DNA from: Thermoanaerobaculia bacterium
GTDB lineage: Bacteria > Acidobacteriota > Thermoanaerobaculia > Multivoradales > JAGPDF01
DNA length: 43,549 nucleotides
Assembly: GCA_018057705.1 (NCBI GenBank)
Contig: JAGPDF010000040.1
Coordinates: 1-43,549, forward strand
Direction: 5' to 3'
Shown: positions 2,314-43,426 of the stretch, one piece after another
How the letters are laid out: each line of letters begins with the position of its first letter
How positions within the stretch are numbered: position 1 is the first letter of the stretch
Notes under the pieces: model-generated
Seen by the model: the letters and a program-made list of their open reading frames with translations, nothing else
Databases searched by the model: none
Told to the model about the DNA's origin: nothing
Program-made: the position numbers and the translations under genes

Positions 2314-3909
2314 TCAGCAGGTCGGTGCGCCGACGCTCGACGACCAGTTGCAGTGCGCCTGGGTCTCGAAGCCGTCGCGGAAGAGCGCCTCCGAGTAGAC
2401 GACGTTCCAGGCGCCAGCGGCGACCTCGCTCGACACCGTCTCTCCCGGCGCTCCGATCGCGAGGTCCTGGCCGGAGTGGCCGGCGAAACGCCCGGCGGCG
2501 AGCGCGAAACCGAAGCCGTCGCCGACTTCGGACGGATCGATCGTCTGCAGCCAGTTGCTGGCGGTCGCGAGCGAGAGCCCGACTCCCGCGGCGCCGTGAA
2601 TGACGTGGACGATGCCGGTCGTGGTGACCGGTCCCAGGTCCTCGAACGGCACGCCGAGCGCGAGGTCATCTGCGCCGTCGGCGTCGAAGTCCCCAGCCAC
2701 GAGCACCGACCCGAACTCGTCGGCTTCGCTCGGCTCCTCGAACGGGAAATCGCTTTGCAGGAGCAGGAAGTGCAGCCCGGCGTCGATGTCGAGCACGGTC
2801 ACGGCGCCGGCGTTCGCCACCGCTTCTCCCTCGAGATTCTCGCCCGGCGAACCGACGGCGATCTCGTCGAAGCCGTCGCCGTCGAAGTCCCCGGCGGCGA
2901 GCGTCAGACCGAAGAAGTCGAACGGTTCCGAGTTTCCGGGCACACCGGGCGAAGACTGCGTGAACTGGCCGACCACCAGGCCGGCGCCGACGTCCCGATA
3001 GACGAAGACGAGGCCCTCCGCTTCGACATCATTGTCGAAGCCGTTCGAGCCCGGCGCGCCGATCGCGAGGTCCTGGCCTGGGAGGCTGCCTCCGAACTGC
3101 CCCGCAGCGAGCGCCGCGCCGAGGCGTTCGCCCTCCCGCGGCGTGCCCGGCAGTTCGCTGCCGCGATAGAGCAACAGCTCACTGGGGCCGGAGAGCCCGG
3201 CGGCGGAACCGAACAGGATGTGTACGGCTCCGGCCTCGGTGACAGCTCCGATGCTCTCGCCGGCGACGCCGATCGCCAGATCGTCGAATCCGTCGTCGTC
3301 GAAGTCGCCGATCGCGAGGCTCGCCGCGAAGCGGTCCGCCGCCTCCGGCGCGCCGCTCACGCCGCCCGTCCCCTGCCGAAAGAAGGCGTTGCCGTCCGTC
3401 ACCAGCCCGAGCGAACTGCCGTAGACGATCTGCAGGCCGCCGGCGTCGGTCTCGGTGCCGATGTCCTCGTCCGGCGAGCCGATCGCGAGGTCGTCGCAGC
3501 CGTCGTCGTCGAAGTCGCCGGCGGCGAGCGCGGCGCCGAAGCGGTCGTCGGCCTCTTCGACCTCCTGCGCGAGGCTCTGCTGGTCCCAGACCTGATGGTC
3601 CGCCGCGACGAGCCCGGAAGCGGAGCCGTACACCACCAGGACGAATCCGGTATCGGCGAGCGCGCCGTTGTTGTCGTCGTCGTCGGGGATGCCGACCGCG
3701 AGGTCGTCGAAGCCGTCGCAGTCGAAGTCCCCCGCGGCCAGAGCGGAGCCGAGGAGCGCGAGCGCCTGCGGCGAGGTGACGAGGTCGGGCGAGCCGGCGC
3801 TCCAGAACTGCGTGGACACCGGGCCGAGTTGCCCTGCGAGCGGTGGCAGGGGCACGAGGGCGAGCAGCAGGGGAGCGACGAGGGCAAGGCGCCGGCGGAG
3901 GGTCGTCAT
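2314..3909 (-). CDS. Secreted seven-bladed FG-GAP (integrin-alpha-like) propeller protein 1
   Basis: 531 residues from the ATG at 3909, chosen because AAGGAG sits 7 bases before it; an in-frame ATG at 3927 lacks such a site. A signal peptide (TTLRRRLALVAPLLLALVP) leads into seven FG-GAP repeats of the form AAGDFDxDGxDDLAxGxP. In FG-GAP proteins the DxDxDG loop binds Ca2+ and seven repeats fold as one beta-propeller. Repeats 4 (GQFGGSLPGQDLAIG) and 7 (GRFAGHSGQDLAIG) have lost the calcium loop. The C-terminus is LFRDGFETQAHCNWSS, the motif shared by other secreted proteins here. It is divergent from the VCBS protein at 4073. The role is unknown; the fold suggests extracellular adhesion or a structural function. 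Confidence 0.85.
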   Translation of the reverse strand: MTTLRRRLALVAPLLLALVPLPPLAGQLGPVSTQFWSAGSPDLVTSPQALALLGSALAAGDFDCDGFDDLAVGIPDDDDNNGALADTGFVLVVYGSASGLVAADHQVWDQQSLAQEVEEADDRFGAALAAGDFDDDGCDDLAIGSPDEDIGTETDAGGLQIVYGSSLGLVTDGNAFFRQGTGGVSGAPEAADRFAASLAIGDFDDDGFDDLAIGVAGESIGAVTEAGAVHILFGSAAGLSGPSELLLYRGSELPGTPREGERLGAALAAGQFGGSLPGQDLAIGAPGSNGFDNDVEAEGLVFVYRDVGAGLVVGQFTQSSPGVPGNSEPFDFFGLTLAAGDFDGDGFDEIAVGSPGENLEGEAVANAGAVTVLDIDAGLHFLLLQSDFPFEEPSEADEFGSVLVAGDFDADGADDLALGVPFEDLGPVTTTGIVHVIHGAAGVGLSLATASNWLQTIDPSEVGDGFGFALAAGRFAGHSGQDLAIGAPGETVSSEVAAGAWNVVYSEALFRDGFETQAHCNWSSSVGAPTC

Positions 3910-4072
3910 CGGGTTCTCCTTGTGCAAGGGCGAAGATTGCCCCGCAACGGCGGGCCGAGTCGTTACGGAACCGTAACCCGAGCCTCACGGTTCCCTCCCG
4001 GTCTTCCGTCGCAGGGGCACGCTTCACGCAGAGCCGGGCGCCGAGGCGCTAGGATCGCGAGCCGGAGGTGCG

Positions 4073-5779
4073 ATGCGCGCCCGCGAGATGCGGTACTTCC
4101 TGTTCTGCCTGATTCCGGCGCTGCTGGCGCCGGCGCTCGGCGGCCAGACGGCCCCCGACTCGTTGACGCCGGTCTGCGCGCCCGTGGCGGGCGGCGGCTC
4201 GACGTCGAGCGCGCCACCGACGCTCCTCGTCACCCTGTTCGATCGCTGGCACGAGGCCTGGCTCGGCTCCCCCGCGGTCGCGGACCTCTCCGGCGACGGC
4301 TCGCGGGAGATTCTCGCGGCGCGGGACCAGAAGCTCCTCGGCTGGAGCGCTGCGGGGGCGATCGTCTTCGAAGAGACGGCGCCGGCGGGCAGGATCTGGA
4401 GCTCACCGGTGGTCGGCGAGCTCGTGCCGGCGAGCCCCGGGCTCGAGGTCGCGGCGGCCTCGCGCGCGACGCTCCACCTCTGGAGCGCCGCCGGGAATCC
4501 GATCGCTCCGTTTCCGGTCACCTGGCGGGACGAGCTGCGTTCGCTCGCCGCCGGCGAGATCGACGGCGACGCGGCGCTCGAGCTCGTGGTGGCGACGACC
4601 TCGCGGCTCGAAGCCGGAGGCCAGCGCGACCTGCTGATGGCGTACGAGCTGAACGGCGCCGTGGTCACCGGCTTTCCGCCGAACACCAGCGGCGCCTCGG
4701 GCTGTGTCGCCGACTGCAACATCACCGGCGGCTTCGACCAGAACCTGGCGCTCGGCGATCTCGACGGCGACGGCGTCGGCGACATCGCGGCGCCGCACGA
4801 CAACGCCTACCTCTCGATTCACGACCAGGACGGCTGGATGCACGACGCCGCGGCCGTTTACCCGGCCGACGACAAGGTCGCCGGCATCCGCTTCCTGCAC
4901 GACCTGGCGCTCGCGCAGCAGGGCTGGCCGAGCAATCCGCCCGTCGACAACCAGGCGCACTTCACCAACAGCGCCCCGGCGATCGCCGATCTCGACGGCG
5001 ACGGCGCGAACGAGCTCGTCGTCCTGGGCTCCGTGCAGAACGCCGCGCAGACCGACCGCCTGCGCGGCGTCGGCCTGTGGCTTCTCGGGGAGGACGGCGC
5101 GCGTCGCCCGGGCTGGGAGACACCGCTCCATCTGTCCACCTATCTCGGCGGGTTGTGGGATTTGGGCGGCAACATCGTCGGCATCACCAACCAGGTTTCG
5201 ATCGCCGACCTCGATCCGCCGAGCTCGGGCCTCGAGATCGTCTTCGCCGGATTCGACGGCAGGATCTACGCCGTGCGCCGCGATCGTTCGATCGCCTGGA
5301 GCTACGCGTACACGAATGATGCCGCGGTCTTCACCGGCGGCGTGGCGCTCGCGGATCTTTCGGGTGACGGCCGGCCCGAGGTGATCTTCAACTCCTACTC
5401 GAGCGACATCGGCAAGGGGAAGCTGTTCGTGCTCGGCCCGGACGGCGCGCTGCAGCACCAGATTCCGCTCCCCGATCGCGGCGCGATGCCGGTGCCGACG
5501 GTGGCCGACGTCGACGGCGGCGGCGCCGGGACGCTCGAGATCGTGGTCAGCCTCAAGGACGGCGTCGACCATGTGCGGCAGCTCCTCGTCTTCACGGTGC
5601 CCGGTTCGGCGGAGAACTGCCTCCCCTGGCCGACCGGCCGCGGCAACTATCTCCGCAACGGCTCCTCGGCGTTTCTGCCGGCCGAAGCGCTCTTCGCCGA
5701 CGGTTTCGAGAGCGGCAACACCGCAGCCTGGGGCGCCCTGGTGCCGGAACCCCGGCTTCCCGTCCCCGGCGCAGGTTAG
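4073..5779 (+). CDS. Secreted VCBS/FG-GAP-like propeller protein with DGFES C-terminus
   Basis: 568 residues with an N-terminal signal (MRYFLFCLIPALLAPALGG) and about eight irregular repeats such as [40 protein letters not shown] and ADLSGDGRPEVIF. These are the VCBS/FG-GAP type seen in extracellular propeller proteins, but more divergent than the six seven-bladed paralogues elsewhere in the window. GGAGG lies 4 bases before the ATG. An alternative ATG six codons in would place the signal peptide closer to the start. The tail is LFADGFESGNTAAW plus a short proline-rich extension. No enzymatic motif was seen. Confidence 0.8.
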   Translation: MRAREMRYFLFCLIPALLAPALGGQTAPDSLTPVCAPVAGGGSTSSAPPTLLVTLFDRWHEAWLGSPAVADLSGDGSREILAARDQKLLGWSAAGAIVFEETAPAGRIWSSPVVGELVPASPGLEVAAASRATLHLWSAAGNPIAPFPVTWRDELRSLAAGEIDGDAALELVVATTSRLEAGGQRDLLMAYELNGAVVTGFPPNTSGASGCVADCNITGGFDQNLALGDLDGDGVGDIAAPHDNAYLSIHDQDGWMHDAAAVYPADDKVAGIRFLHDLALAQQGWPSNPPVDNQAHFTNSAPAIADLDGDGANELVVLGSVQNAAQTDRLRGVGLWLLGEDGARRPGWETPLHLSTYLGGLWDLGGNIVGITNQVSIADLDPPSSGLEIVFAGFDGRIYAVRRDRSIAWSYAYTNDAAVFTGGVALADLSGDGRPEVIFNSYSSDIGKGKLFVLGPDGALQHQIPLPDRGAMPVPTVADVDGGGAGTLEIVVSLKDGVDHVRQLLVFTVPGSAENCLPWPTGRGNYLRNGSSAFLPAEALFADGFESGNTAAWGALVPEPRLPVPGAG

Positions 5780-5848
5780 CCAGTTCGTACAACGAACCCA
5801 GCGGCTCCGTTCAATCTCCGCGGGGGGCCGGGATGCGATCGTTCTCCT

Positions 5849-5868
5849 CGTTGACAACGACGTCAACG
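5849..5868. promoter_or_regulatory. Perfect 7-6-7 inverted repeat upstream of the metallothionein-like gene
   Basis: CGTTGAC-AACGAC-GTCAACG forms two perfect 7-base arms around a 6-base spacer, 20 bases upstream of the ATG at 5889. A TTGACA at 5851-5856 lies inside it and could act as a -35 element, though no good -10 follows. It looks like an operator for a dimeric repressor; the regulator is unknown. Confidence 0.4.
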
Positions 5869-5888
5869 CCACCTACGAGGAGCCGACC

Positions 5889-6041
5889 ATGAAGAGCGCC
5901 ACGAAGACCTGCACCTGCGGTACCTGCGCCGGCAAGACCTGCACCTGCGGCTGCCAGGCCGCCCACTCCGATCGCCGCGCCGGCTGCCGCTGCGGCGACA
6001 CCTGCAACTGCGGCTCGACCTGCAGCTGCGCGAAGTCGTAA
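5889..6041 (+). CDS. Small cysteine-rich metallothionein-like protein
   Basis: 50 residues with 12 cysteines (positions 8, 10, 13, 18, 20, 22, 33, 35, 39, 41, 45, 47), one histidine (26), and no Trp, Phe, Tyr, Leu, Ile or Val. Most cysteines fall in C-x-C pairs; the first half repeats a KTCTCG unit twice, and residues 33-47 form a second cluster. This composition is diagnostic of metal-thiolate cluster proteins that sequester Zn, Cd or Cu in the cytoplasm. It does not look like cyanobacterial SmtA, which has a zinc-finger-like fold and several histidines, so the family is uncertain. GAGGAG 6 bases before the ATG fixes the start. A palindrome lies upstream and a very strong hairpin follows. 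Confidence 0.75.
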   Translation: MKSATKTCTCGTCAGKTCTCGCQAAHSDRRAGCRCGDTCNCGSTCSCAKS

Positions 6042-6137: not shown

Positions 6138-6959
6138 TCAGGCTTCGAAGGGTGACGCGATCTCGAAGAACTCGCCGCTCATCAGGACCGACGGGGCGAT
6201 GCCCACCATCCGATGGAAGGTGTGCGTCAAGTGCGCGGCATCGGCGAAATCGGCCTCGTGGGCCGCGGTGGCGGTCGTGCGACCGCGGCCGATCATCAGC
6301 ATGGCGCGCGTCAGCTTGCGCCACAGCAGGTAGCGACGGAACGGCAACCCCACCTGCTGCTTCCACAGATGCGCGAAACGGCTGGGCGAGAGGAAGGCCA
6401 TCGCCGCTGCGGCGTCGACCGACATCCGGAGGTCGTCCGACGCGCGTATGGCCGCGAGCACGCGCGTCACGCGCGGGTCGAGACGGCGACTGGGGGGCGC
6501 GCCGGTGCAGAAGGCGTGCACGCACTTCCTCACCAGGTCGGGAATGCGCAGGCTCTCGAACGGCTGCTCGAGGAACCGCCGGAGCTCCGCGGCGCAGTCG
6601 GCCAGCCGTTCCTCCGGTACGAGGGTGATGTCGTTGCGCAACGGCGCGACCAGACCGAGGCCTTCGGTCGATTCCGGGTCGACGAACAGCATCGCGTTGA
6701 GCGCTCCGCCGGGGTCGTAGGAGTGGACGGCGTCCGGTCGCACGATCGCGCCCTGGGCCCGCCGCCAGTCGCCGTGTGCGCCGCGGATGGCGAAGCTCCC
6801 CTCGAGGGCGACCACGAGCTGGATCGCGTGGTGGGTGTGCGGCGGCACGATCCCCACACCCCGACCGGTCAGGAGGAAGCCCCCTTCCCACAAGTACCAG
6901 TGCGGCGTTGTTGACCACCGGTTGCCGGCGACGGCAGCGGCGGGTCGTTTCGAGGTCAT
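6138..6959 (-). CDS. AraC-family transcriptional regulator
   Basis: 273 residues. The N-terminal half looks like a cupin effector domain (PPHTHHAIQLVVALEGSFAIRG near 40-60). The last 100 residues form the double helix-turn-helix of AraC regulators: MSVDAAAAMAFLSPSRFAHLWKQ (first helix pair, given here as a landmark near 180-200), then ADFADAAHLTHTFHRMVGIA, the usual second helix and signature. It lies 58 bases downstream of the FAD monooxygenase on the same strand, so it may share a transcript or control that gene. No effector can be named. There is no clear Shine-Dalgarno at the chosen ATG. Confidence 0.85.
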   Translation of the reverse strand: MTSKRPAAAVAGNRWSTTPHWYLWEGGFLLTGRGVGIVPPHTHHAIQLVVALEGSFAIRGAHGDWRRAQGAIVRPDAVHSYDPGGALNAMLFVDPESTEGLGLVAPLRNDITLVPEERLADCAAELRRFLEQPFESLRIPDLVRKCVHAFCTGAPPSRRLDPRVTRVLAAIRASDDLRMSVDAAAAMAFLSPSRFAHLWKQQVGLPFRRYLLWRKLTRAMLMIGRGRTTATAAHEADFADAAHLTHTFHRMVGIAPSVLMSGEFFEIASPFEA

Positions 6960-10163: not shown

Positions 10164-11828
10164 TCAGGGTAGGTGACTGCTCCAGGCGTCGAGGTTCTGG
10201 GTCCCGAAGCCGTCGGAAAAGAGCGAGCCGTAGAGGATCGTCTGGGCGCCTGCATCGCCGAGGCCGTCCGCGGTCTCGAACGGCGCGCCGATCGCGAGGT
10301 CGTCGTGGCCGTCGCCGTCGAAGTCGCCGGCGGCGACCGTCCAGCCAAAGTTCTTGTGGTGCTCGTTGACGTTGCCGGGGAAGCCCTGCGAGCCGGCGAT
10401 GATCCCGCGAGCCGTCCCTGACGCGAAACCGCCGGTACAGTTCGCCATCAGCAGCGTTACATGGCCGTCCTTCCCGTCGGCGGTGGCGATCCCCTCTTCC
10501 GGCGCGCCGATCGCGAGGTCGTCGCAACCGTCGCGGTTGAAGTCGCCGGCGGCGAGCGACGCGCCGAAATGGTCGCCTTCCTGCGAGGTCTCACCCGCCG
10601 AAGGGAGCGTGCTCTGCGTGAATCGCCGCGCACGGGCCAGATCGAAACCGCCGGCGGCGCCGAAGGCGACTTTCACCTCGCCGGAGTTGACGTCGTTGCC
10701 GGATGTGCCGGCCTCCTCCTTCGGGACGCCGATCGCGAGGTCGTCGTACCCGTCGCCGTCGAAGTCGCCGGCAACGAGCACCTCTCCGAAGTCGTCGTAG
10801 GTTTCCCTCGTCCCACCGAGGTCATCGTCGTAAAAGAACAGATCGCGCGCGCCGTTCAGGCCGGTGGCGCTGCCGAAGAGGATCTGCACCGCGCCGACCT
10901 CGTCCTCCCCGACCACACCGATCGCGATGTCGGCATAGGCGTCGCCGTCGAAGTTCCCCACCGCGAGGCTGTAGCCGAACTGGTCTTGGTCTTCGCTCCC
11001 GCCGTCGACTCCGGAGGTGTCCTGGTCGATCGAGTACGCGAAATCCGAGGCGAGCCCGCCAGACCAGCCGGGCAGGATCTCGATCATGCCGGCATTGTGA
11101 CTGAAGCTGCCAAAGTCTTCGAATGCAACGCCAATGACGAGGTCGTCGAAGCCGTCGCCGTCGAAGTCGCCGCACGCGAGTGCTTCGCCGAAGCTGTCGG
11201 ATGCCTCGACATCTCCTGGAATTCCCGAAGTGTTCTGGGTGAAGAACTCGGAGCCGAATCCCGGAAAACTGCCGGCGCGGCCGTAGTGGACCTGGACCGC
11301 GCCGGCCGAACCTGTGGCGCCAAAGTCCTCTTCGGGGATCCCCACCGCGAGATCCTCGAAGCCGTCACTGTTGAAATCGCACGAGGCGAGCTGCTTGGCG
11401 CGGGGGTAGACTTCGTTGAAGTCCCCCCCACCAAACCTGTCTCCCGCCTCCGGCGCGTCGAGCCCGGCCGACTGGCGCACCAGCTTCACCGGGTCGAGGC
11501 CGATGGTTGAAAAGTACTGGCTGACGATAAACGCGCCGCCATCGGTCACGGGAGCCGTCGTCGGGCCGTCGTCGTCCGGAACTCCAGTCGCGAGATCGTC
11601 GCGGCCGTCGCCGTTGAAGTCGCCCACGGCGAAGGTCGCCCCGAAGTGATCGTTCTCCTGCACCGGGAAGGCGCCGATCGTCTGATTGCCAATCTTCTGC
11701 GCGCGGACCGGCGACAGGGATCCGGAGACCTGCGCTCCTGCCCCGGTGGCGAGCATCGCAGTCATCACCACCGAAGCGACCATGACAGACAACCCCTCGG
11801 ATCGGACATTCTGATGGTTCGTTCGCAT
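10164..11828 (-). CDS. Secreted seven-bladed FG-GAP propeller protein 2
   Basis: 554 residues; the start at 11828 has GGGAGG just upstream. The N-terminus carries a signal peptide (VMVASVVMTAMLATGAGAQ), then the paralogue-typical LSPVRAQKIGNQTIG. Seven FG-GAP repeats follow ([48 protein letters not shown] and so on), each with a Ca2+-binding DxDxDG-type loop, consistent with one propeller. The tail is LFSDGFGTQNLDAWSSHLP. It is divergent from kinase A with 170 bases between the starts, so this is the first candidate output gene of the kinase-sigma cassette. Function beyond an extracellular propeller is unknown. Confidence 0.85.
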   Translation of the reverse strand: MRTNHQNVRSEGLSVMVASVVMTAMLATGAGAQVSGSLSPVRAQKIGNQTIGAFPVQENDHFGATFAVGDFNGDGRDDLATGVPDDDGPTTAPVTDGGAFIVSQYFSTIGLDPVKLVRQSAGLDAPEAGDRFGGGDFNEVYPRAKQLASCDFNSDGFEDLAVGIPEEDFGATGSAGAVQVHYGRAGSFPGFGSEFFTQNTSGIPGDVEASDSFGEALACGDFDGDGFDDLVIGVAFEDFGSFSHNAGMIEILPGWSGGLASDFAYSIDQDTSGVDGGSEDQDQFGYSLAVGNFDGDAYADIAIGVVGEDEVGAVQILFGSATGLNGARDLFFYDDDLGGTRETYDDFGEVLVAGDFDGDGYDDLAIGVPKEEAGTSGNDVNSGEVKVAFGAAGGFDLARARRFTQSTLPSAGETSQEGDHFGASLAAGDFNRDGCDDLAIGAPEEGIATADGKDGHVTLLMANCTGGFASGTARGIIAGSQGFPGNVNEHHKNFGWTVAAGDFDGDGHDDLAIGAPFETADGLGDAGAQTILYGSLFSDGFGTQNLDAWSSHLP

Positions 11829-11983
11829 CGATCCTCCCTCGCTGGCACCGAGCCCGGTACGCCGATTCCGCCGGCCTGGAAAAGGTGCGGCTTCTGCATG
11901 GATCGAGAACGAGAGGGAGAAGGCGACAGGAGGGAGCGAAATGCCTCGGAGCTAGGTCACCGCGTCGGGATCCGCGCTTCGAC

Positions 11984-11989
11984 TACGAT
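11984..11989 (+). promoter_or_regulatory. Putative -10 box for a leaderless kinase A transcript
   Basis: TACGAT lies 9 bases before the GTG start at 11999. The same TACGAT within GAtTACGATcc occurs before the paralogous kinase at 22890. No Shine-Dalgarno is present. No convincing -35 element was seen. Confidence 0.4.
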
Positions 11990-11998
11990 TCCCAGACC

Positions 11999-14779
11999 GT
12001 GGCCTTCGTCGACGAGTCGTTTTGGAGTCGGCTGTCGCCCCTTCTCGATCAGGCGCTCGAGCTCGAGGGGGAGCCGCGCGACCAGTTCGTAGGGTCGCTG
12101 CGAGAGCGCGACCCCGCGCTCGCCGAGGCGCTCGAACGGCAGCTCGCGGAGCACGATCACGCCCTGCGCACGGGGTTCCTGGATCTGCCGGCGGGGGCGA
12201 CGCCGGTTTCGCTCGAGGGCCGGACCTTCGGCGCCTACGAGCTCGTCGAGCGCATCGGCGCCGGCGGCATGGGCACGGTCTGGCGGGCGCGACGCAACGA
12301 CGGCCGTTTCGAAGGCGACGTCGCGGTGAAGCTCCTCCACCCGTCGCTCGTCGAGGAGCGCGGATCCGAACGCTTCCGCAGCGAGGGTTCGATCCTGTCG
12401 CGACTCTCCCACGCCGGCATCGCGCGTCTCTACGACGCCGGCCTGTCGGCGGCCGGACAGCCGTTCCTCGTCCTCGAGCTCGTCGAAGGCCTCCGGATCG
12501 ACCGCTTCGCCGACGCGCATCGGCTGCCGGTGCGCGCCCGGCTGGAGCTGTTTCTCCAGATCGCCGACGCGGTCGCCTACGCCCACTCGAACCTCGTCGT
12601 GCACCGCGATCTCAAGCCCTCGAACATCCTCGTCGATCGGGCCGGACAGGCCAAACTGCTCGACTTCGGAATCGCGACTCTCGTCGATCAGGTTTCCGGC
12701 CTGGCGGTCGGCCGCACCGTCACGACCGGGCGTGCGCTCACCCCGGAGTACGCCGCGCCGGAACAGCTCGAAGGTGGCGCGATCACCACCGCCACCGATG
12801 TCTACGCGCTCGGCGTGCTGCTCTATGAGCTCCTGACTGGCGAACATCCGGTGGCTCGCGCCGACACTTCGCCAGCCGACCTCGTGCGCGCCATCACCAC
12901 CGGCGCGACGATACGGATGAGCGAGCGTGTGCGACGGAGCCCCACGGAGCCCCGCGCCGCAAACGCCCACGCTGAAGACGAGGGCGATGCCGAGCCTTCG
13001 CGTTTCGAGGCACGATCGACGACGCCGGATCGGCTCGCGCGCGCGCTCGCGGGCGACCTCGACACGATCGTCGCCAAGGCGCTCAAGCGAGCGGTCGCCG
13101 AGCGCTACCCCACCGTCACGGAGCTCGCCGACGACCTGCGGCGTCATCTGCGCAATCTTCCGGTGCGGGCGCGACCCGACAGCCTCGGCTACCGCGTGCG
13201 CAAGCTCGTCGCGCGCCACCGCGTCGAGGTCGGCGCGGCGGGCCTGGTCGTCGTCGCCCTCCTCGCAGCCACGGGGATCAGCTGGCGGCAGGCGCGGGCC
13301 TCGGCCGCCGAGCGCGACCGCGCGCTCGAGGAGCTGCGCCGGGCTGAAATCACCAACGATCTTTCCGGCTTCCTGATCTCCGAGGCCAACCCCGAAGGAC
13401 TCCCCATTTCGAAGACGGATCTCCTGGCGCGGGCCGAGGCGATGATCGAGGGGCGCTTCGCCGACAATCCAGCGCTTCAGGCCCACATGCTCGTTCTGCT
13501 CTCGAGCCGGTACTACGAGATCTCCGACTACCCGCCCTGGCGGAAGGTGCTGACACGCGCCTACGAGCTTGCCAGCCGGACTTCCGACCCGCGGTTGCGC
13601 GCCGTGGCGGCTTGCGAGCTCGCGATGGCGGTAACCGACGAGGAGCCCGAGCGGGCGCAGGCACTTCTCGCCCAGGCCAACGTCGCGCTCGCCGCCCAGG
13701 ACCCTGCCGCCGCCGCCGCCGAGCTCGCCCGTTGCCGGCTCGACGAGGCGATCGTCGCCAGCTGGGGCGGCCAGTTCGAGCGCGCGGTCGCCGCCGCCGA
13801 GGAGTCGCTGCGCTACGAGGCCTCGCGTCCGGGCCCTTCCGGCCGCGGCGCCGAAGCGCTCAACACCCTCGGGCTCGCCCAGGGACAGCTGGGCCGATTC
13901 GAGGCGGCCAACGCGACGTTCGAGAGACTGCTTTCCGTCCTCGCCGCGGAGCGGCGAACCCGCACGCGGTTCGCCGCGACCGCCCGTCACAACTGGACGC
14001 TCGCCCTCGTCAATGCCGGCCAGGTAAAGCGCGCGCTCGCCGAGTCCGACACGCTTGTCGCCATCACCCGGGAGCTCGGCGGCGGGCCGGTCTCGCCGTA
14101 CAAGCTCTCGTCCCGCGCGAGCCTGCTGTCGTACGCCGGGCGACACGAAGAGGCGATCGCCGCCGCCACCGAGGCGATCCGCAACCTCTCCCGAACGACG
14201 GGATCGCAGGTCCCGTTCTGGATCCACTGCATCGCCGCTCGCGTCCAGGCCCAGGCGGGACGGTTCGACGACGCCGACCTCGCGCTCGCCGAGATGGACC
14301 GCGCTTTCGCGGCGATCCCTTCCCCGCCCGCCGGGCTCGCCGGCATGCGCGAGCTCTACCGCGCCCGGGCGATGGTGGACCGCGACGCCGGCGCCGCACT
14401 CGCCCTCGCCCGGCGCGCGTTCGAGCTCCTCGAGCGCGAGAAGCAGCCGGCTCGCGATCTGCTGCAGGCGCTGCTGATCGCGGCGCGCGCCGAGAACGAC
14501 CTCGGGAATGGAGCCGCGGCCCGAGCCGACGCCGCGCGCGCCCTCGAGATGGCACGGGCTGGCCTCGGCGGCTTCGCCCATTCGCGCGAGCTCGGCCTCG
14601 CCGAGCTCGAAGCCGCGCGGGCCGCCGCTCTCGCCGGAGACCTCACCGCCGCGCGGGCCGGATTCGAGCGCGCCGTCGACAACCTGCGGGATGCCGTCGG
14701 CACCGACGCGCCCGAGACGCTCCGCGCCGAGCGCCAGGCAGCGGCGTTCGCAGGCGGATCCCCTTCGCCCGCGGGCTAG
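11999..14779 (+). CDS. Transmembrane Ser/Thr protein kinase (PknB type) with TPR C-terminal region (kinase A)
   Basis: 926 residues from the GTG at 11999, chosen because it makes the first 230 residues align without gaps to kinase B. Residues 1-75 are a helical N-domain common in such kinases. The kinase domain (about 80-350) shows GAGGMGTV (87-94), VAVK (Lys111), HRDLKPSN (Asp204), DFG (222-224) and APEQ. A single transmembrane helix (VGAAGLVVVALLAATGI) sits near 409-428, and the rest is a long alanine-rich helical region with TPR-like pairs. The kinase is therefore cytoplasmic and N-terminal. The TPR half follows the only membrane span, so it would be outside unless the helix is only membrane-associated. 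The gene converges on the ECF sigma gene, sharing CTAG. Confidence 0.9.
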   Translation: MAFVDESFWSRLSPLLDQALELEGEPRDQFVGSLRERDPALAEALERQLAEHDHALRTGFLDLPAGATPVSLEGRTFGAYELVERIGAGGMGTVWRARRNDGRFEGDVAVKLLHPSLVEERGSERFRSEGSILSRLSHAGIARLYDAGLSAAGQPFLVLELVEGLRIDRFADAHRLPVRARLELFLQIADAVAYAHSNLVVHRDLKPSNILVDRAGQAKLLDFGIATLVDQVSGLAVGRTVTTGRALTPEYAAPEQLEGGAITTATDVYALGVLLYELLTGEHPVARADTSPADLVRAITTGATIRMSERVRRSPTEPRAANAHAEDEGDAEPSRFEARSTTPDRLARALAGDLDTIVAKALKRAVAERYPTVTELADDLRRHLRNLPVRARPDSLGYRVRKLVARHRVEVGAAGLVVVALLAATGISWRQARASAAERDRALEELRRAEITNDLSGFLISEANPEGLPISKTDLLARAEAMIEGRFADNPALQAHMLVLLSSRYYEISDYPPWRKVLTRAYELASRTSDPRLRAVAACELAMAVTDEEPERAQALLAQANVALAAQDPAAAAAELARCRLDEAIVASWGGQFERAVAAAEESLRYEASRPGPSGRGAEALNTLGLAQGQLGRFEAANATFERLLSVLAAERRTRTRFAATARHNWTLALVNAGQVKRALAESDTLVAITRELGGGPVSPYKLSSRASLLSYAGRHEEAIAAATEAIRNLSRTTGSQVPFWIHCIAARVQAQAGRFDDADLALAEMDRAFAAIPSPPAGLAGMRELYRARAMVDRDAGAALALARRAFELLEREKQPARDLLQALLIAARAENDLGNGAAARADAARALEMARAGLGGFAHSRELGLAELEAARAAALAGDLTAARAGFERAVDNLRDAVGTDAPETLRAERQAAAFAGGSPSPAG

Positions 14780-17807: not shown

Positions 17808-19457
17808 ATGCGCAAATCTCCCCAACGTCCCGCATCCCGTTTCGCCCTGGCCGGGATGCTGGCCCTGCTCGCCTGCCTCTGGAGCGCCGGGCGCGCCAAC
17901 GCCGCGGCCTCGGTCGGGCTCTCGACCGTGCAGAGCCGCCTCCTCGCCAACCCCTCGATCGCCCAGTGGACGGCCGAAGCCGGCGACTCCTTCGCCGACG
18001 TGCTCGCCACCGGCGACTTCAACGGTGATGGCGCCGACGACCTCGCGGTGGGCATCCCCAACGACAACGGCCTGCACGGCGCGACCGCCAACAGCGGACT
18101 CGTCGTCGTCTGGTATGGCACTCCCGGAGAAGGACTGCAATCAGTGGTCTGGAACGTCCTGCGGATTGCGATCCCGCAGGAGAACGCCCGCTTCGGCGCT
18201 GCGCTCGCCGCCGGCGACTTCGATGGCGACGGCTTCGACGACCTCGCGGTAGGGGCGCCAGGCTTCGACTTCACCACCGGCAATCAAGACACCGCAAACT
18301 ACGGGATGGTCAGGATTCACCGCGGCAGCGCCACCGGGCTCGAGGAGATCAGCCCCGAGACGCTGGATTCGCGCGGCTACGGCGGAGCGCAACAGCACTT
18401 CGGTCAGAGCCTCGCGGTCGGCGACTTCAACGGCGACTTCCTCGACGACCTCGCGGTCGGAGCGCCGCAGGCGAACTGGGCGATCGACGGCACGACCGTC
18501 CCCGGCGGAGTTGTCTACGTCCAGCACGGCCCGGATCTCATCTCCACGCAGTGGTACCGCTTCTCGCAGTACATGGACGAGATCCCCGACATTTTCGAAG
18601 CGAACGATCTCTTCGGCTTCTCCCTCGCCGTGGGCAACTTCAACCGCGACGGCATCTGCTCGCCGGCCTGCGCCAACTACGACGATCTCGCCATCGGGGT
18701 TCCGGGAGAGGATGGACAGGGCAAAGTCCTCGTGCTCTTCGGCAGCGAGTGGAGTCTGCTCGCCGGCAGCGCGCACTGGTTCGGCGAAGGGGAGCTCGGC
18801 GGAACCGCTGGCCCGGGGCAGTTCGGACGCACGCTCGCGACCGGCGACTTCGACGGCGATCTGGCCGACGATCTGGCGGTCGGCGCGCCGTTCAAGTCGG
18901 TGAGTGGGGCAGCGGCCGCAGGGCAGGTCACCACCCTCTTCGGCAGCGTGATCGCCATCAACGGCTCCTGGTTCGACGTCGCCGCCACCCGCTGGCTGAC
19001 GCAGACGACGTTCTACGGCGCGGGCGCGAACGCCGCCAGCGATCAATTCGGCTGGAGCCTCGCCAGCGGCGACTTCGATCGCGACGGCGTCGATGACCTC
19101 GCGGTCGGGCATATCGGCGAGGACGTGGTCCCCGGCGGCAGCAACCTCGGCGCCTTCACGATTCTCACCGGGAGTGGCGCGAACCCTCGGGGGCCTGGCC
19201 GCACCTTTCGCCTCTTCGGCGCCGGCTATGCCGGCATGCCGATCCCGTGGGCCGATTGGGACAACTTCGGCTGGTCTCTCGCGACGGGCGACTTCGACGG
19301 CAACCTTCACGACGACCTCGTCGTGGGAGTCCCATTTCACGATGTCGCGAGCGTCGGCACCGAAGTCGGCGCCGCGGTGGTGCTGCGAGGGGCGCTCTTC
19401 GCCGACAGCCTCGACTGGGACGGCAGCCTCCTCTTCTGGTCCGAAGTGGCGCCCTGA
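17808..19457 (+). CDS. Secreted seven-bladed FG-GAP propeller protein 3
   Basis: 549 residues. A signal peptide (FALAGMLALLACLWSAGRANA) is followed by VGLSTVQSRLLANPSIAQW and seven FG-GAP repeats. Repeat 4 is interrupted: the calcium loop reads NFNRDGICSPACANYDDLAIG, with an inserted segment holding two cysteines that could form a disulfide. The tail LFADSLDWDGSLLFWSEVAP is the most divergent version of the DGFE motif (DSLD). The start has no obvious Shine-Dalgarno; the ATG follows GTAGTGGGAT directly. It stands alone on the plus strand, and the VOC gene downstream converges on it. Confidence 0.85.
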   Translation: MRKSPQRPASRFALAGMLALLACLWSAGRANAAASVGLSTVQSRLLANPSIAQWTAEAGDSFADVLATGDFNGDGADDLAVGIPNDNGLHGATANSGLVVVWYGTPGEGLQSVVWNVLRIAIPQENARFGAALAAGDFDGDGFDDLAVGAPGFDFTTGNQDTANYGMVRIHRGSATGLEEISPETLDSRGYGGAQQHFGQSLAVGDFNGDFLDDLAVGAPQANWAIDGTTVPGGVVYVQHGPDLISTQWYRFSQYMDEIPDIFEANDLFGFSLAVGNFNRDGICSPACANYDDLAIGVPGEDGQGKVLVLFGSEWSLLAGSAHWFGEGELGGTAGPGQFGRTLATGDFDGDLADDLAVGAPFKSVSGAAAAGQVTTLFGSVIAINGSWFDVAATRWLTQTTFYGAGANAASDQFGWSLASGDFDRDGVDDLAVGHIGEDVVPGGSNLGAFTILTGSGANPRGPGRTFRLFGAGYAGMPIPWADWDNFGWSLATGDFDGNLHDDLVVGVPFHDVASVGTEVGAAVVLRGALFADSLDWDGSLLFWSEVAP

Positions 19458-20230: not shown

Positions 20231-21880
20231 TCACGGCGCGGGGGTCCAGTAGTCCGCGTTGGCGGACTCGAAGCCGTCGGCGAAGGCAGCGCCCGGCAGG
20301 ACGATCGCCGCGCCTGCGGCGTCGATTCCGGAGACGACCTCGAGAGGCAGCCCGCTGGCGAGGTCGTCGAAACCGTCGCCGTCGAAGTCGCCGGCGACGA
20401 GAGCCGAACCGAAGCCGCCGCGCGAAGTCTGCGGCGGCTGGCCGGGCAGCCCCTCTGCGACCGGGGCGAAGCGCCGGACGCCGCCGCCGAGCCCCCCGGC
20501 GTTGCCGGCGATCACGGTCGTGGCACCGTGGTCGAAGTGCTCCGGCACGGCCGACGGGTTCTCTCCCGGATGCCCAATCGCGAGGTCGTCGAAGCCGTCG
20601 CCGTCGAAATCGCCGGTCGCCAACGCTTGGCCGAAGCGGTCGCCGGTCTCGCTCGCTGGAGGGTCGAGAATCATGTCCTCGGCGAAGTGGGAGACGTGGC
20701 CCGGGGTCGGGATCGTCGGCCCGCCGTAGACGACGACCACCTGGCCCGCCGCATCGACGACGCCGGTCGGAGCATCGAACGTGTCGAAGGGGATGCCGAT
20801 GACCAGGTCGTCGAAGCCGTCGTCATCGAAGTCGCCGAAGGCTAGAGCGAGCGCGAAGCGATCGGCGAGATCGGGGTCGCCTCCCAGCGCCCCATCGGTA
20901 AGGAGCATCGAACCCGCCGCGACGAGTCCGGCGGGCCCACCGAAAACGACGTGCGCGATTCCGGCCGCGATGGCCTCGCCGGGGACGCCGATCGCGAGAT
21001 CGTCGAAGCCATCGCCGTCGAGATCTCCCGCCGCCAGAGCGTAGGCGAACTGATCGAAACCGTCGGGCTCGCCCGGCAGGCCGGTTCCGAGCTGGTCGAA
21101 GGCCTGCGACGCGGCGGGGGCAAGCCCCGTGGCCGAACCGGGGATCGCCACCGCCCAGCCCGCCTTCGCTGCGCCGTTCAGGGCCTCGCCGGGGGCGCCG
21201 ATCGCCAGGTCGGCGAAGCCGTCGGCGTCGAAGTCGCCACAGGCGAGCGCCCCGCCGAAGCGATCCTCGACCTCGGCGCCATCCGGGATACCGATCGTGT
21301 CCTGGGTGTAGAGGCCGGCGCCGCTCGTGACCGGCCCACCGGGCCGACCGCTGTAGGTGAAGACGGCGCCCGCGGCCGACGTCGCGCCGACCGACTCGCC
21401 CGGAGCACCGACCGCGAGGTCGTCGAAGCCGTCACCGTCGAAATCGCAGGCGGCGAGGGCGTAGCCGTGGGAATCGAACGGCTCGAAGCCGCTGCCGGTC
21501 TGGGACAGGAGGCGCGGAGTCGACCCGGCGAGAAGCCCCGTCGCGTGGCCGAAGAAGACGATGACGCTACCGCTGCCCGGCACCGGCGCGCCGATCGGCC
21601 CGGAATCTCCGGGCACGCCGACCGCGAGATCCTCGCGGCCGTCGCCGTCGAAGTCTCCGGTCGCGAAGGCGTGTCCGAAGGCGTCGTCTGCCTGGACGCC
21701 CGTGGCGCCGATCGCCGGATCGGGAAGGTAGATCGCCCCAACGGTGGAGAGCCCGACACTCTCGGCGTCGGCGAACGCGAGAGCGGTAACGAGCAGAAGC
21801 GCGAGCGCTGCGATCGGGACTGTGTCGCGCAGCGCCGTGACGGATCTCCCGCCACGGCGCCTCGGGATGCGCCCGGTCAT
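20231..21880 (-). CDS. Secreted seven-bladed FG-GAP propeller protein 4
   Basis: 549 residues. The start at 21880 overlaps the stop of mddA as ATGA, so translation is probably coupled. A basic N-terminus and signal peptide ([19 protein letters not shown]) lead to [18 protein letters not shown] and seven FG-GAP repeats, all with intact DxDxDG-type loops ([48 protein letters not shown] ...). The tail is [17 protein letters not shown]. It is closest to proteins 5 and 6 (shared CDFDGDGF in repeat 2 and GHPGEN-like text in repeat 6), so these three are recent duplicates. Confidence 0.85.
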
Positions 21881-22653
21881 CCCGGCTCGCTCTCGGCGAT
21901 CCGGCGCGCGCGCGCGCCGCGGCCGGGCCCCTTCCCGAACGGCAGCAGCATCGGCACACGCTCGCGGTAGTCGGCGTAGGCGCGACCGTGTGCCGCGAGC
22001 GTGTCGCGCTCCTCGAAGCGGATGCCGACGAGGATGTAGAGCGTCGTCGCGACACTGAACAGAAGGTGTCCGGCCGTCATCCGCGGCGTGGCCCAGAAGG
22101 CGAGGAGGAATCCCAGCATGATCGGATGCCGGACCATTCGGTAGAGGAACGGGGTGCGGAAACCGACCTCGGTGTAGGGGCGCTGCCGCAGGTGGAGGTA
22201 GACCTGTCGCAGTCCGAAGAGATCGAAGTGCTGAATCAGGAAGGTGCCGACGAGGACCATCGCCCAGCCGAGGACGAAGATGGCCCAGAGAACGGCCTGC
22301 CCGGCGGCGCTCTCGACGCTCCAGATCGTCCCCGGGATCGGCTCCCACTGCCAGAAGAGCAGGATGAGGGCGAGGCTCGCGAGCAGCACGTAGGTGCTGC
22401 GCTCGATCGACTTCGGCACCAGCCGCGTCCACCGGCGCTTGAATCCCGGCCGCGCCATGACGCTGTGCTGGAGCGCGAACACCGCGAGCAGGAGGGCGTC
22501 GATCGCGAGCGCCCGGCCGAGGGGTCCGGCCGCTCCGTCGTTCACCGACTTCGGCACCAGGACGTCGCCGACGAAGCCGATGGCATAGAGAAAGGTGCCG
22601 AGGAAGATCAGATAGCTCACTGCGCCATAGACGAGGGCGAAGACTCGGGTCAT
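21877..22653 (-). CDS. mddA: Methanethiol S-methyltransferase (MddA-like, NnrU/ICMT-type membrane enzyme)
   Basis: 258 residues with about five membrane helices. Its text matches the MddA family: [62 protein letters not shown], then the S-adenosylmethionine-binding end [20 protein letters not shown] and the closing [11 protein letters not shown]. MddA enzymes methylate methanethiol to dimethyl sulfide (family knowledge). AGGAGGAG precedes the ATG at 22653. The gene is divergent from kinase B, with 236 bases between the starts, and overlaps the next FG-GAP gene by four bases. A possible methanethiol oxidase lies at 35858-37189. Confidence 0.8.
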
Positions 22654-22872
22654 GACTCTCTCCTCCTGGATCGAAGCGTGAACGACGCGCGCACGGCGCG
22701 AACCGACGCGGCCGGAGGTCGGATCCGCCGGCTCATCGAGATGTATCGAGATCGGGGTGGGCGAGCCGCCAGTGGAGACTGTCGCGAGCGCTCCGGGCGG
22801 GTCCGACGAAGGTGATGGACCGCAGGCGCCCCTTCGGGGGAGGGGGGGCCGCGGCGGGTTTCGGGTTTGGAT

Positions 22873-22878
22873 TACGAT
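22873..22878 (+). promoter_or_regulatory. Putative -10 box of kinase B
   Basis: TACGAT ends 11 bases before the ATG at 22890. It matches the element before kinase A in sequence and near-position, while the rest of the upstream regions differ. No Shine-Dalgarno is seen. Confidence 0.35.
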
Positions 22879-22889
22879 CCACCCTTCGT

Positions 22890-25616
22890 ATGGGCCTTCT
22901 CGACGACGCGCTCTGGCGGCGGCTCTCGCCGCTGCTCGACCGTGCCCTCGAGCTCTCCTCGCAGGAGCGCTCGGCGCTGGTCGCGACGTTGCTCGACTCG
23001 GAGCCCGACCTCGCGGCCGCCCTGGAAGAGGCGCTGGCAGTCCACGAGCGGGCGGCCGCCTCCGGCTTCCTCGCGTCTGCGGCACGCACGCCGGCGCGAT
23101 CGCTCGCCGGTCAGAACCTCGGCTCCTACCAACTGATCGAGCGCATCGGCGCCGGGGGTATGGGCAGCGTCTGGCGCGCAACGCGGGCCGATGGCCGCTT
23201 CGAAGGTGAGGTCGCGGTGAAGCTCCTCCATCCGTCCCTGATCGAGGGCGAGGGGGCCGAGCGCTTCCGCCGTGAGGGAACGATCCTCTCCCGCCTGACC
23301 CACCCCGGAATCGCGCGGCTTTACGACGCCGGCGTGTCGGAGGCCGGGCAGCCGTACCTCGTCCTCGAGTTGGTCGACGGCGAACCCATCGACCGCTACG
23401 CCGACGCGCGCCGGCTCGACGTCGGCGCGCGCCTGGTCCTCTTCCTGCAGGTCGCCGAGGCGGTGGCTTCCGCCCACTCGAGCCTCGTGGTGCATCGCGA
23501 CCTCAAGCCGTCGAACATTCTGGTCGACCGTGACGGACGGGTGAAGCTGCTCGACTTCGGCATCGCAACGCTGCTCGACGCCGCCTCCGGCGAGGCCAGC
23601 CTCCGCACGCAGACGGCGGCGCGCGCGCTCACGCCGCAGTATGCGGCCCCCGAGCAGCTCGAGGGGGGGCCGATCACCACCGCCGTCGACGTCTACGCCC
23701 TCGGCGTATTGCTCTACGAGTTGCTGACCGGCGAGCATCCGACGACTCGGGCACGGGCCTCGACAGCGGAGCTCGTTCGCGCGATCACGACAGCCGATCC
23801 GCCGCGGATGAGCGAGCGCATCCGCCGCGCCGGGAATCGAGGCGGCGAAGCCGACCGCTTCACGCTGCGCGCACCCACCCGCGAACAGCTGGCTCGCACC
23901 CTGGCGGGCGACCTCGACACCATCGTCACCAAGGCCCTCAAGAGAGACCCGGCGGCGCGCTACCTCACCGTCGCGGCTTTCGCCGACGACCTGCGGCGCC
24001 ACCTTCACGACCAGCCGGTGCGGGCGCGCCGCGACAGCTTCGGCTATCGGGTGCGCAAGCTCGTCGCGCGCCACCGTCTCGAGGTCGCCGCCGCCGTGGT
24101 CGTGACTGCGTCGCTCGTGGCCTCGACCGCCATCGCCGTGCGGCAGGCGCGCCGCTCCGAACACCAGCGGGATCGCGCGCTCGAGGAGCTCTATCGGGCC
24201 GAGATCACCAACGACCTCTCCGCCTTTCTCCTCTCCGAGGCGACCCCTGGAGCCGAGCCCATCCGCAAGAGCGAGGTGCTGCGCCGCGGCGAAGAGATGA
24301 TCGAGGGGCGCTTTGCCGGAGCGCCCGACCTGCAGGCGCACATGCTCCTCGTCCTCTCCGAGCGCTATTACGAGACTTCGGAGTTCGCGAGCTGGCGCCG
24401 AACTCTCGAACGCGCCTACGAGCGCTCCCGGGAGACGAGCGACCCGCGCCTGCGCGCGGTCGCCGGGTGCGAGCTCGCCGTCTCGCTGGTGGACCGCGAC
24501 ATGGACCTTTCCCGGCAGCTGCTCGAGGAGTCCCTGCGGGAGCTCCAAGGCGCCAGCGAGCCGGCGGCAGAGCTTGCCCGTTGCCGGCTCGCCGAGGCGA
24601 TCGTCGCGCGCCGGCTCGGCGAGCTCGACCGGGCGGTCGCGGCCGCAGAGGCTGCGCTCGCCCTCGAGCGCGCACGCCCCGGGCCGCCGGGCCGGGGCGC
24701 CAACGCCTTGAATGCGCTCGCGCTCATCCAGACGGAGCTCGGCCGCTACGACGCGGCGAGCCGAACCTACGAGCAACTCTTCGAGCTCTTCCGGTCGCAG
24801 CGGCGAGAACGGACCCGAACCGCGGCCACCCTCCACCACAACTGGGCCGTCGCTCTGCAGAGCGCGGGTCAGATCCGTCGCGCGCTTCTCGAGTCGGAGC
24901 GCGGCGTGGCCCTGGCGCGCGAGGTCGACCCCGGGACGGGGCCGTCTCCGAATCAGCTCTGGGTCCTGGGAAGTGCGCTCTCTCTGGCCGGGCGCCACGC
25001 CGAAGCGCTCGCCGCCATCGACGAGGCCGTCGAGCGGGCCCGCAGCTCGGAGGGAGCGGCAATCTCGTTCTGGGCGCTCGTCTATGCCGGCCGGTTGTAC
25101 GCGGAAGCCGGAATGCCGGGGGCAGCCGACGAGCGCTTCGCGGAGCTCGATCGGCTCACCGCTGCGAGCCCCGCACTTCCCGCCTGGTTCACTGGCTGGC
25201 GAGAGTGGTACGGCGCCGCGGCCGAGGTCGAGCGCGGGAGTCCGGCGCGAGCGGTCGAGCTCGCGGCCCGCGCGCTCGCGACCTTCGAGGCAGCGAAACG
25301 GCCGCGCGAGATCCCGCCGACGCGGCTGCTGCTGGCGCGCGCTTTCAACGATCTCGGTCGATTCGAGGAGGCGCAAGCCCAGGCCGAACCGGCCCTGGCC
25401 GCGGCTCGTGAGCGGCTGGGAGACTTCTCGCACTCGCGCGGCGTCGGTCTCGCCGAGCTCGAGCTGGCCCGGGCGGCGGCCGGTTCCGGAGATCCGGTCC
25501 GGGCCCGCGCGGCGATCGCACGGGCCCTCGATCACTTGCGAGCCTCGATGGGGGACGACGCCCCGGAGACGCGGCGGGCGCTGGCGCTCCATGCAGCGCT
25601 CACCGCGCCGGGCTAG
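22890..25616 (+). CDS. Transmembrane Ser/Thr protein kinase (PknB type) with TPR C-terminal region (kinase B)
   Basis: 908 residues from the ATG at 22890; residues 1-230 align with kinase A without a gap. Visible are GAGGMGSV (87-94), VAVK (Lys111), HRDLKPSN (Asp204), DFG (222-224), a transmembrane helix near 397-416 ([18 protein letters not shown]) and a TPR-like C-terminal half. It has the residues needed for activity. The juxtamembrane linker is shorter than in kinase A, which has an extra acidic stretch around 320-335. The gene converges on FG-GAP protein 5 with only 8 bases between the stops; sigma B lies just beyond. It is most likely the partner kinase of sigma B. Confidence 0.9.
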
Positions 25617-25624
25617 CGCCGCGC

Positions 25625-27289
25625 CTACGGATCGATCGCCCAGGGGGCGAGGGGCACCTCGTGCTCGAAGCCGTCGGCGAACTGGGCGCCGGGAAGTACG
25701 GTCACCGTACCCGCTCCGGTAACGCCCTCGATCGTCTCGTGCGGAGCGCCGATCGCCAGGTCGGCGTAACCGTCGCCGTCGAAATCCCCGGCGGCCAGCG
25801 CGCGGCCGAGCTCCCGCCCCGGCGAACCCGGCGGCGGCGGTCCCGGGAAGCCGTCAGCCCCGGCGGCGAAGAGTCGACGGCCCGCCGTGGGCGCGGGTCC
25901 GTCGGCGGTGCCGACCATCACCGTAACGGCGCCGTCCTGCGCGAAACCGATCGCCTCTCCGGAGTGGCCGGCGGCGAAGTCTGCGCGGCCGTCGCCGTTG
26001 AAGTCGGCCACCGCGAGCGCCAGTCCGAACCGGTCGTTCCCCTCGCTCGCCCCCGGAAAGTGGATGTTGTTCTCGGCCCAGTAGGAGACCGGTCCGGGGG
26101 GCGTGACCGATCCACGGACGACCGCGACCTGCCCGGTCTCGACGATCGGGCCACCGCTCGAAGCGAACGTCTCGAGCGGAATGCCCACCACCAGATCGTG
26201 GAACCCATCGCCGTCGAGATCGCCGAACGCCAGCGTGAGCCCGAAGTTGTCTCCCGCCTCCGTCAGTCCGCCGAGAGTCGCGTCGGTGAAATCCAGCGAT
26301 TCGAATCCGGTGAGGCCGGCCAACGCGCCGAAGAGCACGTGGACCGCTCCCGCGGAGAGCTCCTCGCCCGGCACCCCGATCGCAAGGTCGGCGAACCCGT
26401 CGCCGTCGAAGTCACCGGCCGCGAGGCTCGCTCCGAACTGGTCGTTCGGCTCCGGATCGTCAGCGACGTCCGGTCCGCCCTGGGTGAAGGTGTGAGTTCC
26501 CGTCGCCGAGAGACCAGCGGCCGACCCACGAAGGACGGCCACCCAGCCGGCGTTCACGGCGGCCCCGACGTCCTCGGACGGCGCGCCGATCGCCAGGTCG
26601 GCGAAGCCGTCGTTGTCGAAGTCGCCGCAGGCGAGCGCAGCGCCGAAGGCGTCGCCCGCCTCCGCGGTATCGGCGATGCCGACGGTGGCCTGCGTGAACA
26701 GCGCAAAGGCCCCCACCACGGGCCCACCGGCGTCACCCGGGTAGACGAAGACGGCGCCCGCCGCGTCGATCGCTCCGAGGCCCTCGCCGGGCGCGCCGAC
26801 GGCGAGGTCGGCGAACCCGTCGCCGTCGAAGTCACAGATCGCCAGCGCGTGGCCGTGCCGATCGTTGACCTCGTATCCGGAGCCCGACTGGGCGATCCGA
26901 CGCGGCGGCGCTCCTGCGATTCCGGTGTCGCCGGCCCCGAAGTAGACCGACACGCCGCCGCTGTTGGCCACCGGCGCCGCCAAGGGACCGTCATCCTGCG
27001 GGATTCCGACCGCCAGGTCGTCGAAACCGTCGCCGTCGAGATCTCCCGCAGCGAGTGCCTGCGCGAATCGGTCGTTCGTCTGCGGACCCAGATCGCCGAT
27101 CGTCACGTTCGCCAGTCGGTGAGAACGCACCGGCGAGAGGCCGACGTTCAGGTCTTGGCCGGAGAGTTCGACGGCGAGCAACGTAGCGCCCAGGACAAGG
27201 CAGCGGCCGGCCGTGCGGACCCCTCGATGCCGCGCGCCGTGCGTTCGCGGGCCCCGCGACGAGGGCTGGCCTCGGAAGTTTCGATGCAT
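25625..27289 (-). CDS. Secreted seven-bladed FG-GAP propeller protein 5
   Basis: 554 residues from the ATG at 27289, preceded by AAGGAG at about 8 bases; longer in-frame starts upstream lack such a site. A basic N-terminus and hydrophobic segment (CLVLGATLLAVELSG) are followed by LNVGLSPVRSHRLANVTIG, then seven FG-GAP repeats. Repeat 6 is degenerate (ADFNGDGRADFAAGHSGE). The tail is FADGFEHEVPLAPWAIDP. The gene lies between kinase B and sigma B, where the first cassette has nothing, and follows sigma B on the same strand with 121 bases between them, so it could be in its transcript or regulon. Confidence 0.85.
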   Translation of the reverse strand: MHRNFRGQPSSRGPRTHGARHRGVRTAGRCLVLGATLLAVELSGQDLNVGLSPVRSHRLANVTIGDLGPQTNDRFAQALAAGDLDGDGFDDLAVGIPQDDGPLAAPVANSGGVSVYFGAGDTGIAGAPPRRIAQSGSGYEVNDRHGHALAICDFDGDGFADLAVGAPGEGLGAIDAAGAVFVYPGDAGGPVVGAFALFTQATVGIADTAEAGDAFGAALACGDFDNDGFADLAIGAPSEDVGAAVNAGWVAVLRGSAAGLSATGTHTFTQGGPDVADDPEPNDQFGASLAAGDFDGDGFADLAIGVPGEELSAGAVHVLFGALAGLTGFESLDFTDATLGGLTEAGDNFGLTLAFGDLDGDGFHDLVVGIPLETFASSGGPIVETGQVAVVRGSVTPPGPVSYWAENNIHFPGASEGNDRFGLALAVADFNGDGRADFAAGHSGEAIGFAQDGAVTVMVGTADGPAPTAGRRLFAAGADGFPGPPPPGSPGRELGRALAAGDFDGDGYADLAIGAPHETIEGVTGAGTVTVLPGAQFADGFEHEVPLAPWAIDP

Positions 27290-27410
27290 CGTCGTGGCTC
27301 CTTCTCGGCTGCGCTGCGCCTCGGGCCATGGCGACCCGGGCGGGCGACCGTCTCGGAGTTGGATCGAGGGCGCGCCCGGAAACACGACAGGGCCAGCCGC
27401 CCGCGCCCGC

Positions 27411-40866: not shown

Positions 40867-40876
40867 GCGTGCCGCC

Positions 40877-42651: not shown

Positions 42652-42657
42652 ATCAAA

Positions 42658-42686
42658 AGTATGCTCTCGACATGACAAGAAGTCAA
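42658..42686 (-). promoter_or_regulatory. Promoter of the metal transporter operon
   Basis: On the minus strand TTGACT, a 17-base spacer and CATACT, followed by 7 bases and the ATG. Transcription would begin at or within a base or two of the start codon. Confidence 0.6.
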
Positions 42687-42688
42687 GT
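42670..42688. promoter_or_regulatory. 19-bp imperfect palindrome over the -35 box, candidate DtxR/MntR operator
   Basis: ACATGAC-AAGAA-GTCAAGT has 7-base arms matching at six positions. It covers the -35 element of the transporter promoter in the 87-base divergent region shared with the DtxR-type regulator. Binding of metal-loaded regulator here would block transcription of the transporter. Confidence 0.5.
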
Positions 42689-42738
42689 TGGTGCCGCATT
42701 TCCTTCCCCCCACTCTCTTTCGGGATAGCCTCCCCGCG

Positions 42739-43416: not shown

Positions 43417-43426
43417 GATCCGGCGC

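Follow-up and report, generated by a model that had tools for sequence, protein, structure and literature searches.

A 50-codon gene in the window, by which we mean the whole 43,549-nucleotide Thermoanaerobaculia contig that was analysed, probably encodes a cytosolic metal-buffering metallothionein, of a family that is absent from the libraries searched and that would stand under a dedicated AraC-type regulator (Table 1). Members of the family very probably trap metal ions. The gene, its conserved cysteines, the linked regulator, the boxes and the inverted repeat are seen in the sequences; metal binding, the metal itself, what induces the gene and which way the regulation runs are inferred.

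Table 1. Positions of the gene, its putative control elements and other features in the window and in related loci
Feature	Sequence	Position	Strand	Remarks
Tandem AraC-type boxes	Window	5777..5815	+	Half-sites 5777–5793 and 5799–5815, 22 bp apart
Inverted repeat GTTGAC-AACGAC-GTCAAC	Window	5850..5867	+	Between boxes and ribosome-binding site; kept in most homologues
Ribosome-binding site GAGGAG	Window	5877..5882	+	6 nt before ATG
Metallothionein-like gene	Window	5889..6041	+	50 aa, 12 Cys, two six-Cys blocks (C8–C22 and C33–C47); 21 homologues
AraC-family regulator	Window	6138..6959	-	HTH_18 and cupin-like N-terminal half (conserved HxHH, HS); convergent with metallothionein gene
FG-GAP/integrin-like ORFs	Window	4073-5779, 17808-19457	+	
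FG-GAP/integrin-like ORFs	Window	2314-3927, 10164-11828, 20231-22432, 25625-27673, 28045-29613	-	
Ser/Thr protein kinase-like ORFs	Window	11885-14779, 22812-25616	+	Closely similar; long C-terminal halves
Probable Mn/Zn-type ABC uptake operon	Window	38669-43428		Read from translations
DtxR/MntR-like regulator gene	Window	42688-43416	+	Read from translation
YtkA-like lipoprotein and di-haem pair	L041	8485-10148	+	
YtkA-like lipoprotein and di-haem pair	L026	4218-5889	+	
YtkA-like lipoprotein and di-haem pair	L014	1033-2810	+	
Small membrane proteins	L020	529-948 and 941-1369	-	
Small membrane protein	L019	1689-2108	+	
Family metallothionein beside AraC gene	L069 (Cupriavidus sp. P-10 plasmid pMTS1)	1739-2677	+	Unannotated; transposase-like ORF nearby

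A cysteine-rich gene under purifying selection

The reading frame translates as MKSATKTCTCGTCAGKTCTCGCQAAHSDRRAGCRCGDTCNCGSTCSCAKS followed by a stop, with cysteines at positions 8, 10, 13, 18, 20 and 22 and then at 33, 35, 39, 41, 45 and 47. Translation confirmed what an earlier note on this DNA had described, a protein whose residues are about one-quarter cysteine (24%), arranged in C-x-C pairs; its remark that hydrophobic residues are nearly lacking was equally accurate, as V, L, I, F, W and Y are all absent, and the sequence has neither a hydrophobic core nor a signal peptide. The protein bears the general marks of metallothioneins, being small, Cys-rich with CxC motifs, free of aromatic residues and conserved at its cysteines.

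All 12 cysteines are encoded by TGC in a GC-rich window and other frames across the gene are likewise open, as would be expected if the open reading frame were a GC-rich low-complexity artefact and no gene. We give this reading practically no chance: among the 283 window ORFs of at least 40 residues the runner-up has 8 Cys per 40 residues against 12 here, and in simulated windows (n = 60, first-order Markov) the maximum was 5–8, never more than 8. Homologues occur in at least three phyla, the ribosome-binding site and upstream boxes are conserved, and five of the six closely related pairs measured are under purifying selection (dN/dS ~0.07–0.28), the sixth (L059/L060) having a dN/dS above 1 that rests on one synonymous change. 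That the gene is real and belongs to a coherent family is nearly certain.

Twelve conserved cysteines define the family

We found 21 homologues: 18 in the window's phylum and one each in a Gemmatimonadetes assembly, on a Gemmatirosa plasmid and on a Cupriavidus plasmid. A scan of genome contigs yielded the Gemmatimonadetes metagenome homologue (L014, 54% identity), and G004, a genome that shares its family with the window's, holds one more; a profile of these two and the window protein recovered five others among 396 sampled genomes of the phylum, and a search of family f76 added 12. With an improved profile, seven of the 396 genomes matched at E 1.2e-10 or better and none between there and the 1e-4 cut-off. 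The complete set is thus 22 sequences with the window's, and the alignment holds 21, the Cupriavidus protein being left out.

In the 21 aligned sequences all 12 Cys columns reach 90% conservation or more, in the pattern CxCx2Cx4CxCxC(Q)-spacer-CxCx3CxCx3CxC; the two clusters delimited in the earlier note are conserved as six-Cys blocks. Two of its further observations hold for the window protein but are not family traits: KTCTCG is indeed duplicated there (residues 6–11 and 16–21), but only the second TCTCG copy is conserved in the family, and H26, the sole histidine, does lie between the clusters but is not conserved across homologues, so that a role for it finds no support.

Because Cys-rich proteins resemble one another trivially, we used shuffled partner sequences as the control when scoring the window protein. 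Against composition-shuffled partners it gave z-scores of 10–15 for five members, 7.2 for Cupriavidus and 4.8 for Gemmatirosa, and against partners in which the Cys alone were repositioned, 3.8–10.7. Weak matches from the own genome or the same taxonomic family (L002, L003, L005–L013) contained no comparable small ORF in a six-frame Cys scan, L005, L007 and L009 also being read individually and rejected; L024, L025 and L061–L064 were likewise rejected for want of a comparable small ORF. Among plasmid matches the Cupriavidus one (H3) is real, H5 was rejected as it lies inside a gene of opposite orientation, and H4, H6–H9 and H11 fall outside the evaluated set.

The family is very probably distinct from known metallothioneins

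By the sequence tests run, the family is distinct from both SmtA/BmtA and MymT. A Pfam and NCBIfam scan of 21 members gave no metallothionein model above cut-off, PF02069 included, and the PDB gave no meaningful sequence match for the same 21; since no member matches a metallothionein in these libraries, the family is new to them. PF02069 itself was absent from 21 genomes (the window's own, G000, among them), and the Synechococcus control was detected. The claims that the protein is unlike SmtA/BmtA and may found a new bacterial family thus stand, with conserved Cys spacing in at least three phyla.

It could still be argued that this is a divergent SmtA/BmtA, MymT or eukaryotic copper-thionein, too short and too biased in composition for profiles to recognise. 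CxC motifs are common to all metallothioneins, one of the 21 members has a sub-threshold match to the plant PEC metallothionein (PF02068, 11 bits, E 0.57 against a curated cut-off of 31.8), and the CNCGSxCSC stretch of the second block is similar to Neurospora copper-thionein. We nonetheless think such membership very unlikely, as none of the 21 exceeds a model cut-off, hhalign probabilities are 0.3% to SmtA and 2% to MymT, and the window protein does not score significantly against SmtA or MymT sequences (shuffle z 1.3 and 1.7, p 0.066–0.11, the 0.066 being for MymT). In the composition-corrected comparison, similarity holds within the family and does not extend to either protein.

SmtA/BmtA proteins are, like these, small, cytosolic, Cys-rich bacterial proteins with CxC motifs, and metal buffering is a putative common function; smtA is under the control of the ArsR-type SmtB, whereas the present family is AraC-linked, arranges its 12 Cys in two six-Cys blocks, has no conserved His and shows no sequence match. 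Eukaryotic metallothioneins, including the Neurospora-type copper-thioneins, have in common with it CxCG and CxC repeats and a lack of aromatics, but it has no Pfam or PDB match to them and sits in a bacterial operon context. MymT, for which copper detoxification is reported (PMC7387436), is similarly Cys-rich at about 50 residues but differs in Cys spacing.

An AraC-family regulator accompanies the gene

The convergent gene downstream encodes a clear member of the AraC family by its DNA-binding half (HTH_18, PF12833; 50.4 bits, cut-off 33.6). Its N-terminal half matches Pfam AraC_binding weakly (E 0.11) and the single-sequence fold was too poor to use (pLDDT 34); the conserved HxHH motif and later HS are compatible with a cupin site. 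Within the AraC family it represents a subfamily nearly constantly linked to the metallothionein: orthologues 60–69% identical adjoin the metallothionein gene in nearly every locus, and a cupin-like AraC regulator of one and the same kind lies beside it in 20 of the 22 loci. In f76 the regulator is directly upstream in 11 of the 12 new loci, and more distant regulators hold the same position in Gemmatirosa (38% identity) and Cupriavidus (31%, its N-terminal part apparently missing). The neighbouring AraC gene in L014 belongs to another subfamily, and the match to the G204 copy spans one in-frame stop. In the window the regulator gene runs towards the metallothionein gene and does not lie upstream of it, which implies that the linkage outlasted a rearrangement.

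Across the 396 phylum genomes, the regulator is present in nine (E <= 1e-45, counting the window's own) and the metallothionein in seven, all of which also carry the regulator (Fisher p ~1e-13). Of the window's seven family relatives, G004 alone has either gene, and it carries both. This adjacency suggests how the metallothionein is switched on; in the literature searched we found no AraC-linked or AraC-regulated metallothionein.

Putative operator and leader

A 39-bp tandem box, approximately TAGCCGATTCrTyCA and TAGCyGCTTCGTTCAAT, recurs between regulator and metallothionein in the aligned loci; its arrangement of half-sites is typical of AraC-family activators. The motif was built from 19 loci, one of which (L051) preserves the second half-site well but not the first. 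The window's box is the sole match in its 5.08 Mb genome with up to three mismatches, and at 41.7 its score is the second lowest of the 19, the others mostly reaching 52–67. The box begins with the three bases that form the stop codon of the FG-GAP gene upstream; the corresponding TAG ends the AraC gene in several relatives.

The inverted repeat probably forms a leader hairpin, the alternative being an operator. Pairing holds in 94% of cells over 17 sequences, against 3–49% in slid controls; all 11 one-sided changes give G-U pairs, and two cells are altered on both sides. What favours the stem is solely the slid controls and the restriction of one-sided changes to G-U, the pair-shuffle control being uninformative, and RNA-fold z-scores for the whole leader are mostly weak. 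We rejected a reading of TTGACA within the repeat as a sigma-70 -35 element because no -10 fits ahead of the ribosome-binding site. Upstream, an extended -10 (TGnGAAACT) makes a plausible reading in relatives but a poor one in the window. The ribosome-binding site in aligned homologues is mostly AAGGAG or a close variant.

Linked genes in relatives

In two genomes, G369 and G398, the regulator has no metallothionein beside it, which means that the regulon extends beyond this gene; G398 has retained the box and inverted repeat although the metallothionein gene is missing. On the far side of the AraC gene in G381, G347 and G004, weaker related boxes precede a gene for a YtkA-like lipoprotein (truncated in G004) with His/Met-rich motifs, and in G347, G381, G369, Gemmatirosa and L014 a lipoprotein gene of this kind is followed by one for a MauG/MbnH-related di-haem protein, which scores below the NCBIfam cut-offs of those models. 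The YtkA partner was not found in the window's genome, and among the genes linked to the metallothionein in the loci read there is neither a metal exporter nor a known regulator of metal response.

Two families of small membrane proteins (~139 and ~142 aa), neither with a Pfam or NCBIfam match, recur beside the AraC–metallothionein pair; the second has a recurrent HxxxDxxH motif.

Genes linked to the metallothionein or sharing its boxes in relatives also include a quinone-oxidoreductase-like dehydrogenase, DoxX-like and DJ-1/PfpI proteins, and these, with the peroxidase-like di-haem protein, are what one would expect if the protein mainly buffered thiol redox state or scavenged oxidants, electrophiles or nitric oxide, its metal binding being incidental and its AraC regulon answering redox or electrophile stress. 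We consider this unlikely: no reductase is consistently linked, and 12 strictly conserved Cys in CxC-rich spacing are what metal–thiolate clusters require, whereas fewer fixed positions would do for a redox buffer.

Elsewhere in the window

The window also contains seven large ORFs with FG-GAP/integrin-like repeats, several of which end in a similar short motif, F.DGFE......W, perhaps a sorting signal, and two kinase-like ORFs that are apparent paralogues less than 11 kb apart. Judged from their translations, as are the FG-GAP ORFs, the genes near the far end appear to form an uptake operon of a substrate-binding lipoprotein, an ATPase and two permeases, one permease having a DtxR/MntR-like C-terminal extension, with the DtxR/MntR-like regulator gene beside it.

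Discussion

For the metallothionein reading we propose the following mechanism. The regulator would use its cupin-like N-terminal half to sense a stress signal, the likeliest being a soft metal ion or a redox disturbance caused by such an ion, and would then bind the tandem boxes and turn on a short transcript with the small hairpin in its leader. The 50-residue product, presumably unfolded without metal, would wrap its two six-Cys blocks around metal–thiolate clusters that buffer the cytosol; chemically plausible clusters would be of the Cu4S6 type with Cu(I), or would hold about three to four Zn or Cd in total. The His/Met-rich motifs of the lipoprotein and the resemblance of the di-haem protein to MbnH are our sole and weak grounds for slightly favouring copper; Cu(I) seems only a little more likely than Zn or Cd, and a mainly redox or other role for the protein less likely than either.

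A more far-reaching reading, which we regard as doubtful, is that these genes form a mobile and hitherto unrecognised metal-stress regulon in at least three phyla, with the AraC cupin regulator as the direct sensor of a soft metal (probably copper) and as the switch for the metallothionein, the periplasmic YtkA-like lipoprotein and the MauG/MbnH-like di-haem enzyme together. Were this so, the regulator would represent a new class of metal sensor, and this would be, to our knowledge, the first bacterial metallothionein under AraC control.

Only a few types of metallothionein have been characterised in bacteria, with SmtA and MymT as the main examples (PMC7387436), and the family libraries used here for genome annotation miss this AraC-linked family entirely. 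Its fixed Cys pattern, linked regulator and recognisable operator give a handle for finding more members. As Gemmatirosa and Cupriavidus, in which relatives occur, include named, sequenced strains, the family is accessible to experiment, and it offers a way to ask what an AraC-type regulator responds to when it controls metal buffering.
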